A DNA stretch of 64,000 nucleotides from Streptomyces sp. NBC_00536 (lineage in GTDB: Bacteria; Actinomycetota; Actinomycetes; Streptomycetales; Streptomycetaceae). The DNA lies in contig NZ_CP107819.1 in assembly GCF_036346295.1 (NCBI RefSeq), forward strand, positions 5,146,001 to 5,210,000, given 5' to 3'. The notes beneath the pieces are model-generated. The model worked only from the letters and a program-made list of their open reading frames with translations. It had not been told where the DNA came from and searched no databases. The position numbers and the translations under genes are program-made. Positions within the stretch are counted from its first letter, which is position 1. Every line of letters begins with the position of its first letter. Shown piece after piece: positions 28,838 to 37,475 of the stretch.

Positions 28838-29691
28838 GCATCGCCTCCCGCACCCCGGAACTGGCGGCCCCGCGCCCCCGCGGCGGCATCGTCCAGGGGG
28901 TCAACGACTCGCTGGTGATCGCCAAGCGGAACCTGATCCGGATGTCCCGGATCCCCGAAATGATCATCTTCGGCGTGATCCAGCCAGTCATGTTCGTCGT
29001 CCTCTTCAGCTACGTCTTCGGCGGCTCCATCAGCGTCGGCGGCAGCACCTCGCCCGCCGCCTACCGTGAGTTCCTGATGGCGGGCATCTTCGCCCAGACC
29101 GTCACCTTCGCCACCGCCGGCGCGGGCGCGGGCATCGCGGACGACATGCACAAGGGCCTGATCGACCGCTTCCGCTCGCTGCCCATGGCACGCGGCGCGG
29201 TCCTGACCGGGCGCACCCTGGCCGACCTGGTCCAGACGGCGCTCACCATCGTGGTCCTGGCGATCGTCGCGGTGATCGTCGGCTGGCGCACCCACGAGAA
29301 CCTGGGCAAGGTACTGGCGGGCTTCGCCCTGCTGCTCCTGCTCGGCTACGCGTTCTCCTGGATCGGGGCGCTCATCGGGCTCTCGGTCCGGACCCCGGAG
29401 GCGGCCACCTCGGGCGGCCTGATCTGGCTCTTCCCGCTGACCTTCATCTCCAACGCGTTCGTCCCGTCCGACAACATGCCGACCTTCCTGCGGCACATCG
29501 CCGAGTGGAACCCCTTCAGCGCCACGGTCCAGGCCTCCCGCCAACTCTTCGGAAACCTGCCACCGGGCTACGAGGCCCCGGGCGCCTGGCCGATGCAGCA
29601 CCCGGTCCTGGCCTCGGTGCTGTGGTCGATCGTGATCATCGTCGTCTTCCGCACCCTGGCGGTCCGCAAATACCGCTCGGCAACCGCGTAG
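28834..29691 (+). CDS. ABC-2 type permease (DrrB-like)
   Basis: A 285-residue integral membrane protein with six predicted membrane segments, the usual ABC-2 layout. It contains FRSLPMARGAVLTGRTLADL, the conserved cytoplasmic segment, and FPLTFISNAFVPSDNMP before the last segments. The GTG start overlaps the stop of the ATPase gene by four bases, so the two form one operon. Confidence 0.92.
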
Positions 29692-29770
29692 CGCGTACGT
29701 ACGCCCGTATCCGGTACGCCGGTACAGAGGCAGCTGAAAGCCGCACCTTGCCGACATCGCACCTGCTTGG

Positions 29771-30427
29771 ATGGGCGGCATGAACGGTACTCAGTCCATA
29801 GACGCCCCTTGGGGCATATCCGTGTTCGGTGCGGCGAGCGTGGACGCCGCGCCTGATGTGGCCCGACTTCGCGTGGCGGTCAAGCAGACGAGGCAGAAGG
29901 CGAGCGAGGCGTTCGAGGTCACACGGGGCAGCGTCAACCAGGTCCGGGAGGTGCTGCGCGGCCACGCGGTCCCGGACACGGCTGTGTCCGCGTCACGTCT
30001 GAACCTGGAGTCCTCGTGGAACTTCGGCAATGAGCGCAAGTTCCTCGGTTACGAGTGCACGGCCGCGTTTGTGATCGAGCTGCGTGAGCTGGACATCCTG
30101 GAGGAGGTTCTTGTCGATGTTGTCGAAGCCGGCGCGAACCAGGTTGCGGGTGTCGAGTTCGATGTGAGCACGAAGAAGGAGCTGCGAGCCCAGGCGCGCA
30201 CGGCCGCCGTCGCTGCCGCACGTGAGAAGGCTGCTCTGTATGCGGAGGCCGGGGGTGTCCGACTCGGTCCCGTCATCCACATCAAGGACGTGGACTCCGA
30301 CCAGCTGCAGAACTCCTACCGTGGACACGGTCGATCGGGTGGTGGCGCAGGAGACGGTGACCTCGCCCCCGGCAAGGTCACTGTGACGGCAGGTGTCGTG
30401 ATCGGCTTCTCGATCATCGGTGGCTGA
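29771..30427 (+). CDS. SIMPL domain (DUF541) protein
   Basis: A 218-residue protein with the SIMPL/DUF541 fold from about residue 15 to the end (ISVFGAASVDAAPDVARLRVAVKQ ... VTVTAGVVIGFSIIG). Relatives form periplasmic oligomers or have unknown roles, but this copy has no signal peptide and looks cytoplasmic. ATG 29780 is an alternative start. Codon use is less GC-biased than the exporter genes upstream, and the gene marks the start of the accessory island. Confidence 0.8.
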   Translation: MGGMNGTQSIDAPWGISVFGAASVDAAPDVARLRVAVKQTRQKASEAFEVTRGSVNQVREVLRGHAVPDTAVSASRLNLESSWNFGNERKFLGYECTAAFVIELRELDILEEVLVDVVEAGANQVAGVEFDVSTKKELRAQARTAAVAAAREKAALYAEAGGVRLGPVIHIKDVDSDQLQNSYRGHGRSGGGAGDGDLAPGKVTVTAGVVIGFSIIGG

Positions 30428-30570
30428 CACCAGGCGCACAGACGTGGTGCCCGGCCGCGAGCGCGAGCCGGGCACGACGTTCCTTGTCTGCATGGAAGTA
30501 AGAGGGCTGCCCCTGGCGATCCAGCGGCCAATCGATGTGTCGACGGGTCTGGATGCCAGCACAGATCCAC

Positions 30571-30597
30571 CCCCACCGGAACGCGCGTCCGGCGGGG
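30571..30597. terminator. Hairpin terminator
   Basis: Stem CCCCACCGGA / TCCGGCGGGG (one mismatch) around ACGCGCG, located between the ends of the SIMPL gene and the opposing DUF397 gene. It closely resembles the perfect hairpin after greA at 36716-36748. Confidence 0.75.
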
Positions 30598-30626
30598 GCT
30601 CGTCCGCGTCACGGGCCGGGAAGCGG

Positions 30627-30818
30627 TCAGGCCTGCTTGATGTGGTCCACGAACAGCCCCCAGCCGATGTCGGTGATCTCCAGGACCGGGCCAGCCGGAC
30701 GCTTGCTGTCACGGACCGGCACTATGCCCGTACCCGAGACGGAGCGCGGCGACCACTCCAGGCAGTTGCCGCCCTCGGGGCTGCTGTAAGACGACTTGAT
30801 CCACTGGGTAGCGCTCAC
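30627..30818 (-). CDS. DUF397 small protein of a WhiJ-type cluster
   Basis: A 63-residue protein with the DUF397 pattern: WIKSSYSSPEGGNCLEW near the start and VPVRDSK in the middle. DUF397 proteins act with an adjacent helix-turn-helix DUF5753 regulator in Streptomyces developmental and antibiotic control, perhaps by modulating its activity. Its ATG overlaps the stop of that regulator gene by four bases. Confidence 0.88.
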   Translation of the reverse strand: MSATQWIKSSYSSPEGGNCLEWSPRSVSGTGIVPVRDSKRPAGPVLEITDIGWGLFVDHIKQA

Positions 30819-31648
30819 TTCAGTCTCTCCATCTGGTCTCTTATGAGGGCGGCGGACTCGGCGGCTGACCTGGCTTCCCCAGACAGGTCCACGAAGGCCT
30901 GTACAGCGTTGCGCACATCGTCAGGGTCCGTCAGAAGCGATGCGGTCCGGTACTGCTCGACGCATACCACCTGCGAACCCTTGGCTCCCCGCAGGATACT
31001 GATCGGGTAGTCCATCAGCAGATTGGGTTTCGCCGACCACGGCACGATGCGGATGCTGGTGGTCGCACGCTCAACATGCCGCAGCAGCAACGCTAGTTGT
31101 CGCCGCATCGCATCCGGCGCGACAGGCTGAAGGCGGAGCGTTGACTCGCCCAGGAGTAGGCGCACATCCGGCGGGGACGGTCGGTCAAAGGCCTCGCGCC
31201 GCGCGACCCGGGCACTCGTGAGCCGCTCGATCTTCACCTCCGGCGCACTGGGCATACCCGCCCTGATCAAGGAGTGTGCGTAGCCCCGCTCCTGAAACGC
31301 CCCTGGGATGACGTTCGGCGCCCACTCCCACACCTCCGTGGCCGTACGCTCCAACGCCATGCGTTGCTGGAACCTGGCAGGGAAGTCCTGAGCGAGCATG
31401 GCCTCGTGCAGCCGCTGAAAGAGCCCATCGGTGCCAAAGACCTCGTCCAGTCGCGCAGGTACACCCCTCGGGATGGCCCCCTCTCCGCGCTCCAGCCGAC
31501 TGACGGCCGTCTTTGAGATCCGCAACTTCCGCGCGAGCTGCTCCTGGGTCAACCGCCCCTCGGGCCACAGTTCGCGGGCCTTGTGAAGCTCCTCTTTGAA
31601 TCGCTCGCGAGGGTCAACCGACTCCTCGGACGCCGTCTCCAATGACAC
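30815..31648 (-). CDS. XRE regulator with DUF5753 domain (WhiJ-like)
   Basis: A 277-residue regulator. The helix-turn-helix is LTQEQLARKLRISKTAVSRLERGEG; the DUF5753 domain follows from about residue 90 (VIPGAFQERGYAHSLI). GTG 31648 is chosen because GGGAGGTG lies just upstream; a start at 31687 lacks a site. It forms one unit with DUF397 and is divergent from a four-gene small-ORF operon ending in an ATPase. Confidence 0.88.
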   Translation of the reverse strand: MSLETASEESVDPRERFKEELHKARELWPEGRLTQEQLARKLRISKTAVSRLERGEGAIPRGVPARLDEVFGTDGLFQRLHEAMLAQDFPARFQQRMALERTATEVWEWAPNVIPGAFQERGYAHSLIRAGMPSAPEVKIERLTSARVARREAFDRPSPPDVRLLLGESTLRLQPVAPDAMRRQLALLLRHVERATTSIRIVPWSAKPNLLMDYPISILRGAKGSQVVCVEQYRTASLLTDPDDVRNAVQAFVDLSGEARSAAESAALIRDQMERLK

Positions 31649-31838
31649 GCCGCACCTCCCGACCGGCCGTCTGGTCCGCAACGGCACGCCACACGATTGC
31701 GCTGGTCAGAAGTCTTGGCATATGCCCCCCTGACCAAACCCCAGGTTGGACCCGGAATCCCTTTTCAGCGTAGCGAGTTGGGGGCCAGGCTGGAGACCGG
31801 AAACGGAAGCCCGCACGGCCCAGGAGGCGGACAGACTC

Positions 31839-32021
31839 ATGACGGGTGACAGCGCTATCCCCACGACCACCGCACACGTCACACGCCTCGCGGATCTCCG
31901 GGACGCCATAGATCTTCGGGCCTTCCACCGGCTCTTGCCGGAGGACATCTCCAAGGACTACCCGCCCCTCACGCGGGATCTCCTGATCCGGGTAGAGGAC
32001 GGCTTGCGGAGGGCGCTGTGA
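31839..32021 (+). CDS. Small protein of the WhiJ-type locus
   Basis: A 60-residue protein (MTGDSAIPTTTAHVTRLADLRDAIDLRAFHRLLP...) with AGGAGG well placed upstream. It is the first gene of a coupled plus-strand operon (GTGA overlap with the next gene). No known domain. Confidence 0.65.
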   Translation: MTGDSAIPTTTAHVTRLADLRDAIDLRAFHRLLPEDISKDYPPLTRDLLIRVEDGLRRAL

Positions 32022-32230
32022 GCACCCCCAAGCGGTATGTACCCATGTCCGACGACTGGGTGGTGAGCGTGGCCACAGGTGAGCAGTACCGGGTCCTGGT
32101 GGATAGGAACGGCACCACCTGGCTACAGCTCCCGGGAGACGGATCCGTCCGGCCCGCAGGGACCGCGCAGCTCCGCCTGGCAAGCCTGGGCGAAGTCCGC
32201 CGCGCCAGCGAACCGAAGGGGGCATGGTGA
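32018..32230 (+). CDS. Small protein of the WhiJ-type locus
   Basis: A 70-residue protein (MSTPKRYVPMSDDWVVSVATGEQYRVLVDRNG...) that is likely a small beta-rich domain. The GTG start overlaps the previous stop by four bases; its own stop overlaps the next ATG (TGATG). Family not recognised. Confidence 0.65.
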   Translation: MSTPKRYVPMSDDWVVSVATGEQYRVLVDRNGTTWLQLPGDGSVRPAGTAQLRLASLGEVRRASEPKGAW

Positions 32231-32538
32231 TGATGAACAGCAACGAGTTCTGGCACGCGGACCCCAACGGCCCGGAAATGGAACGATTCAAGGCCCTCTT
32301 GGCTCTCGTCTTCGCAACACGACAGGCACAGGAACGGCTTGCGGCGAACCTCTACGACACCGCGGAAGAGCGCCAGGCAGACGAAATCCGCGTCGGATTG
32401 GCACAGCTGGTCCAGGACGCAGCTCAGCGGGCCGAAGACCTCGCCACGATCCCCCCGGACGCCTACTGGCCCAAGGGCGCGGCGCTACAGCGACCCGTCG
32501 AAGGCACGGCAGGGACCAACCCGGTAGGCGGGCTGTGA
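32230..32538 (+). CDS. Small helical protein of the WhiJ-type locus
   Basis: A 102-residue, mostly helical protein (MERFKALLALVFATRQAQERLAANLYDTAEERQAD). The start at ATG 32230 is coupled to the previous stop; ATG 32224 is an in-frame alternative. The stop overlaps the next ATG. Family not recognised. Confidence 0.65.
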   Translation: MMNSNEFWHADPNGPEMERFKALLALVFATRQAQERLAANLYDTAEERQADEIRVGLAQLVQDAAQRAEDLATIPPDAYWPKGAALQRPVEGTAGTNPVGGL

Positions 32539-32990
32539 TGAGGGCTCCTCTGGCACCCGCCTTCGCCCAGCACTTCACCTCAACTCCTCGTGGCGCGCGC
32601 CTCGCCCGCCACCTGGCGGTGCTCCAGCTTGAGAACTGGGGTGTGCCACCCGGGACGAGCACCTCCGATGCGGTGGCCTCGATCGTGGGAGAGCTGACCG
32701 CCAACGCAGTACGGCACGGCAGCCTCCCTGGACGGGACTTCGAGCTACGGCTGATCCCCGAAGGGATCCTCGAAGGGATCCCCGAAGGGACCGGCATCCG
32801 AATCGAGGTAGCTGACACCAGAGGGGACCGGACTCCCCGAATTCAGAGTGACCCGCAGGGGGAGAGCGGGCGCGGGCTCCTACTGGTCCGAACCCTCGCC
32901 AGCTCCTGGGGAGTCACGGCCCAAGGCTCCGGAAAGACCGTGTGGGCCGTACGAGACCTTTCGGGCTGGGACGCTCCCGACAGGGCGTGA
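32538..32990 (+). CDS. Anti-sigma-like ATP-binding protein (HATPase_c)
   Basis: A 150-residue protein with the GHKL/HATPase fold of the RsbW/SpoIIAB family. The N box is IVGELTANAVRHG, followed by IEVADTRGD and ESGRGLLLVRTLASSWGV. Such ATPases regularly sit beside WhiJ-type regulator clusters. The loop LIPEGILEGIPEGTG is a short internal repeat coded by a repeated CGAAGGGATCC(C/T) unit. It closes the coupled small-gene operon. Confidence 0.87.
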   Translation: MRAPLAPAFAQHFTSTPRGARLARHLAVLQLENWGVPPGTSTSDAVASIVGELTANAVRHGSLPGRDFELRLIPEGILEGIPEGTGIRIEVADTRGDRTPRIQSDPQGESGRGLLLVRTLASSWGVTAQGSGKTVWAVRDLSGWDAPDRA

Positions 32991-33107
32991 AGTCCGCCGT
33001 TCCCTCCGGCTCGTGGGTAAGGAGCTGTTGCCGTTCCGATCTTGAGTGGTGTCCGTCGAACGGGAGTCTCGATTGGGTGGTCGCGGGGTGCTCGGCGCAT
33101 AAGAGGA

Positions 33108-33161
33108 GGGCCTCCTGATCAGCTCCTTGGTGTCGAATCACCAAGCAACATCAGGAGGCCC
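33108..33161. repeat. Two-tier perfect stem-loop at an insertion-sequence scar
   Basis: An outer stem of 12 perfect base pairs (GGGCCTCCTGAT / ATCAGGAGGCCC) encloses an inner 7-bp stem (CTTGGTG / CACCAAG) with a TCGAAT loop. It lies directly ahead of the reading frame that begins at GTG 33164. Structures of this kind precede some insertion-sequence transposase genes and this may be such a relic. Confidence 0.75.
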
Positions 33162-33163
33162 CG

Positions 33164-35593
33164 GTGCCGCAGTCTTGCGTGTCGATGGGCGGGCAGTCCA
33201 GTTCAGTCACGCTGGAGTGTGACTGCCTGGCTCACCGGTTCGGAGACGCTGCGGACAACGGGTTTCGGCAGGCGCGCTACCCGACGGACATGACGGGCGC
33301 GGAGTGGGCTGTGGTCCGGCCGCTGCTGCCGGTGCCGGGCTGGATGCGGGGTCGGGGAGGCCAGCCGGAGGCGTACTGTCACCGGGCGATACTCGATTCC
33401 ATCCGCTACCTGGCGAAGTATGTCCCGCTCAGTGGCGAGCTTGCGCTCAATGAACCCACCCAAGCCACCGAACTGACGAGTGTTCCACATTCGGCTGTCT
33501 ACCTCGCCAACCTGGGCTATACCTATTCCGTGACTGTGCCAAGGGATGTGGACCAAGCACGCAACGAGCTGCGCAGTGTTCTCGACCGGTGCGAGGTGTG
33601 GCTGCGTACCGCATCAGTCGCTCCCGAGCCCCCTGCGCAATGGCTGCAGGATCTGCGCGAGGATGCGGGCACGATGACACGGTTGAGGACGCGGGCAGCC
33701 TCAACCCTGATCAATGTGGCGCTGCTGGGGGCTTTCTCGTCCGGCAAGAGCTTCCTTCTCAGTGGGCTGCAGAGTGGTCTCGAACTGGTCGAGGTGCCAA
33801 CTGCCGACGGTCAGACCGCGGACAAGTTCGTCGGGCTGCTGCCTTCGTCCCCGGTTCCCACGACCGCTTGTCCCGCCAGCGTGGTTCCGGTCGACGGCCA
33901 GGCGACCGTCGACGCATCGGGCACCGGCTATCTGCGAGTGCGATTCACCGACTCCGGCGAGGACGAGTGGGAGGACGTCGGGAACTCCCCCGCCCCCTCG
34001 GTGGTCGCGGCCTACGCGATGCAGGACATGGATGTGACCGACCGGCTCCGAGCTCACCGCGACCGCGAGGTCGCCGAACTCGAAATCATGCTCGCCGGCG
34101 CGAAACTCCCGGCGAAGTTCTACGACCTGCCCGGCCACGGTTCGCCGAACCCGATCCACGACATGATCGTCCGAGCCGCGATGGCCGACGCGGACTGCTT
34201 CATGTACGTCTCGCACGCCAGCCGCACCCTTTCCGAACGCGACCTTGATCTGATCCGCTTCCTGTACGACCACTATCTGCTGTCGGGGAAACGGGTCGTG
34301 TGGGTGGTCACCGCCATCGATGCAGCGGCAAATCTCGATCTCAGAGACGTCCCGGAGTGGAAGGCGACGATCGCCCGCAACAACACCTACCTGAGAGAGA
34401 ACTTCACGCTGAACGGCCAGCCGGACCTGGGCTTCATCGGCGAAGGCTTCCTGCCGGTCTCCCCCGCCCTGGAAGCGCGCGCCGACAAACTCGGCGCGGA
34501 GGGAGCGGAGGCCGCCGCGCGACGGCAGCATGCGGAGAGCCGCATGGACACGCTGCGCCAGGCGATCGAGGACCTGATCAGTACCGGAACCGGCACCAGG
34601 CACATCGCAGCGGTGGCGACGGAGGCCCAGATCCTCATGGCTCCGCGGCACCACGTACTCGCCGAGCGACTGCGCAACGAACGCCTTGAGATCGACGAAC
34701 TCAAAGAACTACTGAAGAGCCAGGAACGGCGGCTGGATCTCCTCGACTCAGCCCTGCCGCGCATCCGCGAGGACCTTGAACGCAAGCTCCATACCCGCAT
34801 CGCACGAACCGTTCGCCCCTTCACACGTCTGGCGGTGCATCTCCACACCGAGCTGGACGACACCATCAGGGCCACCGACCTCAACAGGCCCACCAAAATG
34901 AACCAGATTCAGGTGTTGAAGGCGCAGGCGCTCCGTACCTGGATCGAAGCCCCGGTCGGCCCCGCAACGCTCTGGAGGGAGCAATTCGAGGCCTTCAAGA
35001 AGGACATCGTCCAGACGGTCGACCAGGTCTTCGGCGACAAGGATCTCGCAGGACGGCTCCCGGACTTCGCCCTCGACGTGAGCAACCTCTCCGTGCCCCA
35101 TCAGAACCGGCGCTCGACCACCCGCCACGACGTGGTTCAGCGTGCGGCTGCACTAGTTGGCATCGTTGCACCCGTCGCAGCAAGCGGAGGTTGGCTGTAC
35201 GGACTCGCGGCGGCCGGCACGCTCTTCCCGCCCGCCGGTCTCGTCGCCGGAGTCGCTGCACTGGTCTTTCTCGGAGTTCAGCACCGCAAAGGCGTAATCA
35301 GCTCCCTGCAAGTCCTCCAGGACGAGTGGATCAGCGCGATGGACTCCGAAGTCACAGCACACAAAGAACAGTTCACACTCGCGACAAGTATTCAGGGAAC
35401 AGACGTCATCGATCACCTGGCGGATAACCTGGCGCAGTACCGGGAACAACTCGAACAGTCCCGAGATCACGTCCGTGAGCGCATCACCAACCCGGAAAAC
35501 CAGGTACGGCAAGGCCTCATCGATCAGCTCGAACCGCTCTGCACGGAAGCACAAACTCTCCTCGACTCCCTCGGCGCACTGAAGGCGATCTGA
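33164..35593 (+). CDS. Dynamin-like GTPase with fused IS-derived N-terminus
   Basis: An 809-residue frame. Residues about 38-84 match the N-terminus of IS5-family transposases. The dynamin-like part begins after that. G1 is GAFSSGKSFLLSGL (Ser193-Gly194-Lys195), G3 is DLPGHG and a G4-like segment is VVTAID. Long coiled-coil helices follow at about 440-600. A hydrophobic hairpin at about 655-705 (LVGIVAPVAASGGWLYG ... GLVAGVAALVFLGV) may insert in the membrane. A native start near GTG 33530 or 33536 would give about 687 residues, normal for bacterial dynamins. The protein probably remodels or guards membranes; a defence role is only inferred from its island location. Confidence 0.75.
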   Translation: MPQSCVSMGGQSSSVTLECDCLAHRFGDAADNGFRQARYPTDMTGAEWAVVRPLLPVPGWMRGRGGQPEAYCHRAILDSIRYLAKYVPLSGELALNEPTQATELTSVPHSAVYLANLGYTYSVTVPRDVDQARNELRSVLDRCEVWLRTASVAPEPPAQWLQDLREDAGTMTRLRTRAASTLINVALLGAFSSGKSFLLSGLQSGLELVEVPTADGQTADKFVGLLPSSPVPTTACPASVVPVDGQATVDASGTGYLRVRFTDSGEDEWEDVGNSPAPSVVAAYAMQDMDVTDRLRAHRDREVAELEIMLAGAKLPAKFYDLPGHGSPNPIHDMIVRAAMADADCFMYVSHASRTLSERDLDLIRFLYDHYLLSGKRVVWVVTAIDAAANLDLRDVPEWKATIARNNTYLRENFTLNGQPDLGFIGEGFLPVSPALEARADKLGAEGAEAAARRQHAESRMDTLRQAIEDLISTGTGTRHIAAVATEAQILMAPRHHVLAERLRNERLEIDELKELLKSQERRLDLLDSALPRIREDLERKLHTRIARTVRPFTRLAVHLHTELDDTIRATDLNRPTKMNQIQVLKAQALRTWIEAPVGPATLWREQFEAFKKDIVQTVDQVFGDKDLAGRLPDFALDVSNLSVPHQNRRSTTRHDVVQRAAALVGIVAPVAASGGWLYGLAAAGTLFPPAGLVAGVAALVFLGVQHRKGVISSLQVLQDEWISAMDSEVTAHKEQFTLATSIQGTDVIDHLADNLAQYREQLEQSRDHVRERITNPENQVRQGLIDQLEPLCTEAQTLLDSLGALKAI
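33275..33415 (+). pseudogene. IS5-family transposase N-terminal fragment
   Basis: In-frame coding for RYPTDMTGAEWAVVRPLLP, then a GRGGQPEAYCHRAILDSIRYL segment. This is the start of an IS5-family transposase; the match ends abruptly after IRYL and the catalytic domain is missing. It is read in the same frame as the dynamin-like gene, so it forms the N-terminus of that product unless translation starts internally. Confidence 0.8.
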
Positions 35594-35751
35594 GCCTGAC
35601 GCTGTCGGGGATCTTGGAGGCGTCGAGTTCATCTGCCAAGGGTCCGCCAAGAGGTGAGCCGGGGGATCTTGTGCCTGTCGAAAACGCGACGCTGCAACAG
35701 CGGCTGGTGCCGGTGAGGCTGTAGAACAGTCCTCCGGCCCCCCTGAAGCGC

Positions 35752-36582
35752 TCAGCTACGGGCGAAGGCGCGCAGGTCTTCGTTGAGGCGGTCCGCGTGG
35801 GTCGCGAACAGCCCGTGGCCCGCGTTCTCGTATACGTGGAGCGTCGCGCCCGGGATCAGGGCGGCCGCGCGGCGGCCCGTGAGCTGGAGCGGGGCGGAAG
35901 CGTCGGCGGACCCGTGCACGACGAGGACCGGGCAGTCGATCTTCGCCAGCTCCGGTACGAGGTTCAGCGTGGGCAGCAGGTCATTGAGGGCCGTCCCGGC
36001 CCGTGCCGTTGCTCCCTGGCAGAGGCGCACCATGTGCGCCACGTACGCGTCCGACACCGTGGAGCCCGGAAGGTGGCGGGCGAAGAAGGCGTCCGCACCG
36101 TCGGCGAAGAACTTCGCCCGGTCCTGCCGGAAGGTCTCGTTGAACGCGCGGATCAGCTGCGGGTCCAGTCCCTCGGGGTGATCCGCCGACCGGGCCGGTC
36201 CCGGCGCCACTCCGCTGACGAGAACGACCCGGGCCACCCGCTCACCGCCGCCGAGAGTCAGGTGGCGGACGACCTCGGTGGTGCCGAAAGAGTGCCCGAC
36301 CAGTGTGATGTCGCGCAGGTCCAGGTGGTCGAGCAGGTCGCCCAGATCCCCGGCCAGCGTATCGAGGTCGAAGCCGCCCCAGACGTCCTCGGACCTGCCG
36401 TGTCCCCTGCGGTCGAGCCCCACGCACCGGAACCCCTCGGCCGCCAGCGGCAGCATCTGGTACTCCCACATCTCGGTGCTGAGGTAGGAGCTGTTGACGA
36501 AGACGATGACGGGGCCGTTCGCCGGACCGTAGTCGACGAAGTGGAGGCGGGTGTGGTCGGTCGTGGACTCGAAGTACGGCAT
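35752..36582 (-). CDS. Alpha/beta hydrolase
   Basis: A 276-residue hydrolase of the haloperoxidase/esterase group. The nucleophile elbow is GHSFG, the acid is likely in VVHGSADASAP, and the catalytic His is in NAGHGLF. An oxyanion strand VFVNSSYLSTEMW is seen. ATG 36582 gives a normal length. The substrate is unknown. It is preceded by the greA terminator region and transcribed alone. Confidence 0.9.
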   Translation of the reverse strand: MPYFESTTDHTRLHFVDYGPANGPVIVFVNSSYLSTEMWEYQMLPLAAEGFRCVGLDRRGHGRSEDVWGGFDLDTLAGDLGDLLDHLDLRDITLVGHSFGTTEVVRHLTLGGGERVARVVLVSGVAPGPARSADHPEGLDPQLIRAFNETFRQDRAKFFADGADAFFARHLPGSTVSDAYVAHMVRLCQGATARAGTALNDLLPTLNLVPELAKIDCPVLVVHGSADASAPLQLTGRRAAALIPGATLHVYENAGHGLFATHADRLNEDLRAFARS

Positions 36583-36715
36583 GTCGGGGTCCCTCCCTGA
36601 GGCGGCTGCGGGGCGTGGCACCATCCTCGCCCAGCGCCACACGCCGGGGCCATTACCGCCGAGGTCATGGCCGAGGCCGGTCCGTGCGCCCGTACGCCTG
36701 TACGTCCTTACGCCG

Positions 36716-36748
36716 GAGCCCCCGCCGGAACGCGTCCGGCGGGGGCTC
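36716..36748. terminator. Terminator after greA
   Basis: Perfect 14-bp stem GAGCCCCCGCCGGA / TCCGGCGGGGGCTC with an ACGCG loop, 20 bases after the end of greA on the minus strand. Confidence 0.92.
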
Positions 36749-36768
36749 TGACGTACGTATGAGGCTGC

Positions 36769-37266
36769 TCAGCCGTTGAAGGGCGTCACGGCCAGGATCT
36801 TGACCTTGGCCTTCTTGCCGTTCGGGAGTTCGTACTGGGCGTCCTCGCCGACCGCCTTGCCCATCACGCCGGAGCCCAGCGGGGACTGCGGCGAGTAGGT
36901 CTCGAAGTCCGAGGACGCGTACTCGCGGGAGGCCAGCAGGAACTCCAGCGTGTCGTCCGGGTCTCCGTCGAAGGCGATGGTCACGAGGGTGCCGGGCGCG
37001 ACCACACCGTCGGACGCGGGCGCGGTGCCGACCTTGGCCTTCTCCAGGAGCTGCGTCAGCTGGCGGACGCGCAGCTCCATCTTGCCCTGCTCCTCCTTGG
37101 CCGCGTGGTAACCGCCGTTCTCGCGCAGATCGCCCTCTTCGCGGGCGGCTGCGATCTTGACCGCGATCTCCGTGCGTGCGGGACCAGAGAGGTAGTCCAG
37201 CTCGGCCTTCAGCTGGTCGTACGCCGCCTGGGTCAGCCAGGTGACGCTCTCGCTCGTCTGGGTCAC
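36769..37266 (-). CDS. greA: Transcription elongation factor GreA
   Basis: Rescues arrested RNA polymerase by stimulating transcript cleavage. 165 residues: the N-terminal coiled coil carries the acidic tip EEGDLRENGGYH, and the C-terminal FKBP-like domain ends QSPLGSGVMGKAVGEDAQYELPNGKKAKVKIL. The GTG start at 37266 has a GAGGAG site upstream and gives the standard length. Confidence 0.96.
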   Translation of the reverse strand: MTQTSESVTWLTQAAYDQLKAELDYLSGPARTEIAVKIAAAREEGDLRENGGYHAAKEEQGKMELRVRQLTQLLEKAKVGTAPASDGVVAPGTLVTIAFDGDPDDTLEFLLASREYASSDFETYSPQSPLGSGVMGKAVGEDAQYELPNGKKAKVKILAVTPFNG

Positions 37267-37475
37267 AGGTGCTCCTCGTCGGTACAGGGGGACTAGGGGG
37301 ACAACAAAGTCGCCGGCAACGGGCGAAACCACGAGCCTAACAATTCGGCAGGAAAAGGGGGAGGACACCGGGCGTGTGAAGTGCGTCAGGGCCCGGCAGC
37401 ACTGACCGGCGGCCGCCCCATGATCACCCGTACGGCGGCCCGTACGACGGCCCGTACGGCTTCGCCCACGGCGCC

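Follow-up and report, generated by a model that had tools for sequence, protein, structure and literature searches.

A solitary dynamin-like GTPase gene with a conserved, probably leaderless start region lies behind an in-frame IS5-family remnant in a Streptomyces accessory island

The best points of comparison for the gene described here are dynamin-type GTPases of other bacteria. In Streptomyces, passages of PMC8748795 describe the pair DynA and DynB, which stabilise Z-rings in S. venezuelae, and assign two transmembrane segments to DynB. For another bacterial dynamin, the DynA of B. subtilis, passages of PMC8844932 report a delay of phage lysis and a possible protection of the membrane. Phage-defence systems of the Eleos/Dynamins type are recognized by two adjacent genes, LeoA and LeoBC. 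Passages of PMC4159319 report that LeoA alone showed neither binding nor hydrolysis of nucleotide, a result which, according to the same source, contradicts an earlier study. A survey of titles and opening lines of abstracts in the open-licence literature returned no published study of the dynamin family to which the present gene belongs.

The window, i.e. the whole stretch of DNA analysed, comprises 64,000 nucleotides from Streptomyces sp. NBC_00536. Within it we recognize, with a probability of about 0.8, an intact dynamin-like gene of 687 codons that has no partner gene, whose product is probably membrane-anchored, and that sits in a strain-specific island with its own promoter and a likely leaderless mRNA. 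Transcription would start at this short promoter, 3' of an IS5 remnant, and the protein would act without a partner, probably held in the membrane by a segment predicted to insert there. By analogy with other bacterial dynamins, its task would be to protect the membrane under stress or against phage lysis. The features on which this reading is built are listed in Table 1.

Table 1. Positions of the features discussed, numbered from the first nucleotide of the window
Feature	Position	Strand	Remark
Strain-specific accessory island, ~7.1 kb	29692..36766		between ABC-2 permease gene and greA
IS5-family insertion sequence, 5' end remnant	33020..33413	+	12 IS copies retrieved, identity 81-88%
Two-tier hairpin of the IS leader	33108..33161	+	3' arm carries the transposase Shine-Dalgarno AGGAGG (33153-33158)
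IS5 transposase start and first codons	33164..33413	+	accidentally in frame with the downstream gene
Core promoter, conserved	33512..33529	+	TATACC 33518-33523 (-12..-7), a candidate -10 box for leaderless transcription
Dynamin-like GTPase gene, 687 aa	33530..35593	+	proposed native start GTG 33530
G1/P-loop GAFSSGKS	33728..33751	+	G67, S70, S71, G72 and K73 invariant in 65/65
G3 DLPG	34124..34135	+	kept in 65/65
G4 position TAID	34310..34321	+	A or G for the usual lysine
Hydrophobic region, putative membrane paddle or hairpin	35135..35290	+	best 19-residue windows at residues 561-584

The island is bounded by the end of the ABC-2 permease gene at 29691 and by greA at 36769-37368, and it holds genes for a SIMPL-domain protein, a DUF397 protein, a DUF5753/HTH regulator, a HATPase, the dynamin and an alpha/beta hydrolase, as well as the IS remnant. 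A search of 41 genomes for the hydrolase-greA side provided 11 other loci for comparison. In 10 of these the site is empty, the left flank, which runs up to 29675-29706, lying only 56-228 nt from the counterpart of 36763-36769; in the eleventh (L070) the permease gene is not beside greA and this locus does not enter the count of empty sites. An earlier note on this DNA had called the neighbourhood accessory, and the absence of the island from 10 of 11 relatives' loci bears this out; its label of a WhiJ cluster agrees with the DUF397, DUF5753/HTH and HATPase families in the window. The GC content is 0.63-0.68 over 30000-36000 and 0.69-0.70 at the hydrolase end, like that of the flanks (0.675-0.733), and the ends of the island yielded no exact 10-mer repeat. 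Nor does any neighbour occupy a common position among the close dynamin loci, which speaks against a shared operon partner at the resolution of the crude gene caller used for the neighbours (the dynamin frames of L008 and L037 were not chosen by it). Neighbour matches are scattered (56% between L008_5 and L029_3, 48% between window_6 and L031_8, and 20-32% among HTH regulators), and three distant loci, L033-L035, have neighbours in common with one another.

The protein is, by the evidence of its sequence, a bacterial dynamin-like GTPase. The Pfam Dynamin_N domain scores 36.2 bits on the 687-aa form and 35.3 bits when the frame is read from GTG 33164, against a cut-off of 27. Together with the G1 and G3 motifs this upholds, at the level of sequence, both the dynamin-like identity proposed in the earlier note and its description of a GTPase with SSGKS, DLPG and a hydrophobic segment. 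The segment recurs throughout an alignment of 65 members (the window's protein and 64 of 112 database hits, fragments and some near-duplicates being left out), the hydropathy over 19 residues exceeding 1.4 in every one of them, and its predicted form is a hairpin of two helices. The canonical G4 motif of GTPases is (T/N)KxD, although this is not universal in the dynamin superfamily. Here it is lacking: position 262 is A in 46 members and G in the other 19, lysine being found in none, while the residues around it are kept (T261 and I263 in 64/65 each, D264 in 65/65). The protein is predicted to hydrolyse GTP, possibly in an atypical manner given the lack of the G4 lysine from the whole alignment. 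One Pfam G domain is found in the window's dynamin, whereas passages of PMC8844932 name two conserved GTPase lysines, K56 and K625, in B. subtilis DynA. Among solved structures, a sequence profile found no dynamin at a significant level: LeoA (4aur) reached an E-value of 0.051, and the best matches were the P-loops of EngA (E 0.0011).

LeoA and LeoBC provide the closest likeness among known defence proteins in the PADLOC collection. At E<=0.001 the LeoA model matches all 65 aligned members and the LeoBC model 61 of them. The window's protein matches at 1.8e-11 and 3.8e-11, respectively, along positions 232-532 of the 559 of the LeoA model and 68-575 of the 601 of the LeoBC model, and is similar to both in length and in having a hydrophobic segment. 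Because of these matches and of the delayed lysis brought about by B. subtilis DynA, membrane protection is taken, by analogy, as the most likely role of the window's dynamin. Phage defence would be one form of such protection, and a tentative one: the gene could be a single-gene system related to the Eleos/Dynamins type, its product delaying lysis or reshaping the membrane during infection. This possible link, an analogy with the systems above, gains from the sporadic presence of the gene, from the lack of a comparable PADLOC match (best LeoA 0.048) in the adjacent pair of dynamin-type genes located elsewhere in this genome, and from lone neighbour matches to Csx1 (3.1e-21), Cas12f and AbiLi models. 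However, an unrelated, Era-like GTPase also matches LeoBC (2.5e-6) and LeoA (4.8e-5) in its G domain, more weakly than the window's dynamin does. In contrast to LeoA and LeoBC, the latter has no adjoining partner: the two-gene arrangement does not occur around it in its own genome, where a whole-genome search placed no second Dynamin_N gene nearby, and blastp, which could miss a distant dynamin, detected no second family member in the compared loci. The neighbourhood argues in the same direction. Of the neighbour proteins of 10 loci, 107 with a length of about 90 aa or more were compared with PADLOC; each model (best 25 of 29) matched four of them at most, and the commonest models, mad3 and mad8, include the ABC-transporter ATPase of the window among their matches. 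The neighbour matches listed from PADLOC and from Pfam (nearest 40 neighbours, best 25 of 48 families) contain no clear recurring defence gene or defence-island signature. Finally, the dynamin gene has no match in phage, plasmid and viral-contig collections at the sensitivities used. As an observation on the neighbours themselves, the lone Cas12f/Cas12u matches reach 4.2e-37 at best and may reflect a TnpB-like protein, the AbiLi match stands at 2.8e-8, and a match to Csa3 was also seen.

What sets the window's copy apart is the sequence in front of it. From GTG 33164 an uninterrupted frame of 809 codons runs to 35593, as the earlier note had observed; it is real but composite, consisting of IS scrap followed by the downstream dynamin gene. 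The note's IS5 fragment in this frame is indeed present, but its extent of about 33275-33415 was too narrow. When window positions 33000-33470 were searched as DNA across 295 genomes of the genus, 198 gave matches, many of them weak, with a best span of ~33020-33413, and the 394-bp remnant so delimited reaches 88% identity with IS copies from elsewhere in the genus. In all 12 copies fetched the match stops at 33405-33413 while the copy itself goes on into the remaining transposase, so that the window retains the 5' end only. In five of the 12 a transposase frame of 305 aa begins at the codon equivalent to GTG 33164, which is therefore the transposase's own start codon. Frames from the Shine-Dalgarno (SD) start have other lengths in L053 (42 aa), L054 (461 aa), L059 (205 aa) and L061 (179 aa); in L057 the frame reaches the end of the contig, and the SD pattern used did not fit L058 and L063. 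The assignment to the IS5 family follows from transposase homology and the same start in other copies. A partial transposase domain (PF13340, residues 43-85 of the 809-aa frame) scores 24.9 bits, below its cut-off of 34.3, and short BLAST found no clear pair of terminal inverted repeats in the IS copies, the remnant keeping one end only. No second copy of the dynamin part exists in the 9.15-Mb genome at E<=0.001; short matches there concern the IS part only.

The leader of the IS carries a stable hairpin, with an outer stem of 12 bp and an inner stem of 7 bp (-36 kcal/mol; z -4.8), and none of 200 shuffled sequences folded equally well. Its 3' arm contains the AGGAGG that stands 5 nt ahead of GTG 33164. 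A two-tier stem-loop just 5' of the frame had been reported before and is thus confirmed, but its interpretation as a second scar does not hold. Similar hairpins fold in all nine distinct other IS leaders that span the region (from 21 loci given), eight of them with AGGAGG, so the structure belongs to the IS; and since the SD sequence of the transposase sits within it, hairpin and transposase start are parts of the same element. The hairpin probably prevents transposase expression from read-through transcripts.

That such a remnant should run on into a host gene calls for no special cause, because frames that stay open upstream of the gene are a common sight in these loci: in three of 10 there is no in-frame stop across 744-1176 nt 5' of the dynamin start. 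The in-frame run is an accident of high GC.

The native start of the gene is indicated by its relatives. Dynamin homologues make up 110 (P0002-P0111) of the 112 protein hits of the 809-aa query, and 81 of these homologues measure 680-700 aa; the remaining two hits are P0001, the window's own database protein, and P0112, a transposase. P0001 alone covers more than 86% of the query, the 687-aa form amounting to 85% (687/809), and a transposase domain is listed for P0001 and P0112 only. Annotated starts vary, several of the closest homologues being annotated from a point some residues further on or deep within the gene; six of the 110 (P0003, P0004, P0009, P0012, P0014 and P0016) start with M-TVPR, as encoded from GTG 33530. 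At the DNA level a GTGAC start is found at the equivalent place in all 10 loci of at least 53% protein identity, which supports the internal GTG near 33530 that the earlier note had offered as one of two alternatives. The frame is closed by a stop 24 nt ahead of the start in L029 and 66 nt ahead of it in L036, and neither locus offers an ATG, GTG, TTG or CTG between stop and start; in L006, where the stop is at -30, a CTG is the sole possible start after it.

Directly ahead of this start lies the most strongly conserved upstream sequence. The hexamer at -12..-7 is identical (TATACC) in nine of nine loci, i.e. the window and eight others with 71-86% protein identity (L007 was dropped, being the same contig as L030). 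Pairwise identity averages 0.78 in the -18..-13 block and 0.29-0.48 in the bins further upstream, and 300 control draws of random 6-mers gave a mean of 0.29 and a maximum of 0.40. A tenth locus, L031 (53% protein identity), has TATAAC at the same place, and the box is absent from that place in six of 16 loci, those of 33-45% identity. None of the four SD-like 4-mers tested occurs in -18..-4 of any of the 10 loci; in L031 a GAGG stands at -19..-16, just beyond the span scanned. The combination of a -10-like box 5-7 nt before the start with no SD sequence in -18..-4 is the layout of leaderless genes. In S. lividans, passages of PMC8079986 report that 17% of transcripts are leaderless, 32.2% of these with GTG, that the -10 box lies 5-7 nt from the transcription start in 88.7%, and that 97.4% of leaderless -10 boxes end in T (consensus TAnnnT). 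The box found here departs from this consensus, its sixth base being C in 10 of 10 loci, and no consistent sigma-70 -35 box was seen by eye. From the arrangement of the start region we infer that the dynamin mRNA is most likely leaderless and begins with GTG. The pattern of box, N6 and GTG with a GGGC lead occurs in the genome of the window once, at the window's own site, and is therefore not a recurrent element there.

The remnant ends 116 bp ahead of GTG 33530, 5' of the promoter core. Since both start codon and core persist behind it, the native 5' end has not been lost to the IS, and the other alternative of the earlier note, in which the IS supplies a new start, is not supported, start and -12..-7 box being kept in nine of nine loci. 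Under that alternative the strain would produce a transposase-dynamin fusion of 809 aa (from GTG 33164) or 767 aa (from ATG 33290). A stop-free frame, a strong SD 5 nt ahead of GTG 33164 and the presence in the protein database of P0001, a 767-aa form that begins at ATG 33290 inside the IS, all speak for such a product; we consider it very improbable, however, as the SD of GTG 33164 is buried in the hairpin, both the native start and its promoter core survive, a transposase domain is listed for none of the other dynamin hits and open upstream frames are frequent in these GC-rich loci. The apparent fusion, and with it the 767-aa form, is very probably a mis-called start. It illustrates how, in a GC-rich genome, the leftover of an IS whose start codon is guarded by a hairpin can give rise to a false N-terminus of this kind. 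On a different protein, P0112 (765 aa, Streptomyces sp. NBC_01278), it was noticed that an IS5 transposase piece seems to continue into unrelated sequence; this may possibly be a chimera of the same kind as the window's frame.

The dynamin gene is rare and sporadic in actinobacteria. At E<=1e-40 it has a match in 10 of 392 genomes of the genus, the window's own included, six of them above 50% identity, and a class-wide draw of 394 genomes gave four at E<=1e-30, again with the window's own counted. It is under purifying selection (dN/dS ~0.12-0.25 against five relatives). The idea that it is a spare copy of the sporulation dynamins DynA/DynB, working like these Z-ring-stabilising members of the same superfamily at division septa, has very little in its favour, because the genome contains an adjacent Dynamin_N pair at 2.865-2.869 Mb (assigned by domain) with which a profile comparison aligns the G domain only (probabilities 6% and 44%), whereas the window's dynamin is unpaired and found in so few genomes. 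What we are dealing with is rather a solitary dynamin, a member of a rare family with a conserved start region that is directly testable.

Several comparisons concern the surroundings of the gene in other genomes. In 13 locus pairs homology at the gene comprises the gene with 19-120 bp upstream and at most ~30 bp past the stop, with a few short matches (26-93 bp) elsewhere. In G106 one contig is collinear with the flanks of the gene of G080 but lacks 4.7 kb including the gene, and another contig has an 89% copy of the dynamin gene. The copies of G018 and G258 are 93% identical at the DNA level, with a single piece of flank found elsewhere (77%). One might speculate, as a rather doubtful extension, that this family of solitary dynamins with an altered G4 moves between actinobacteria as a unit of gene and leaderless promoter, and that it would guard membranes against phage lysis, its SD-free mRNA staying on under translational stress. 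Further upstream, ~35-75 bp 5' of the start, L029, L030 and L036 share by eye a conserved GGTAACGGAACG...GAGGTTRCCG-like block, and the subclade of the window has an imperfect GGAAC...GTTCC dyad instead; block and dyad are possible regulator sites.
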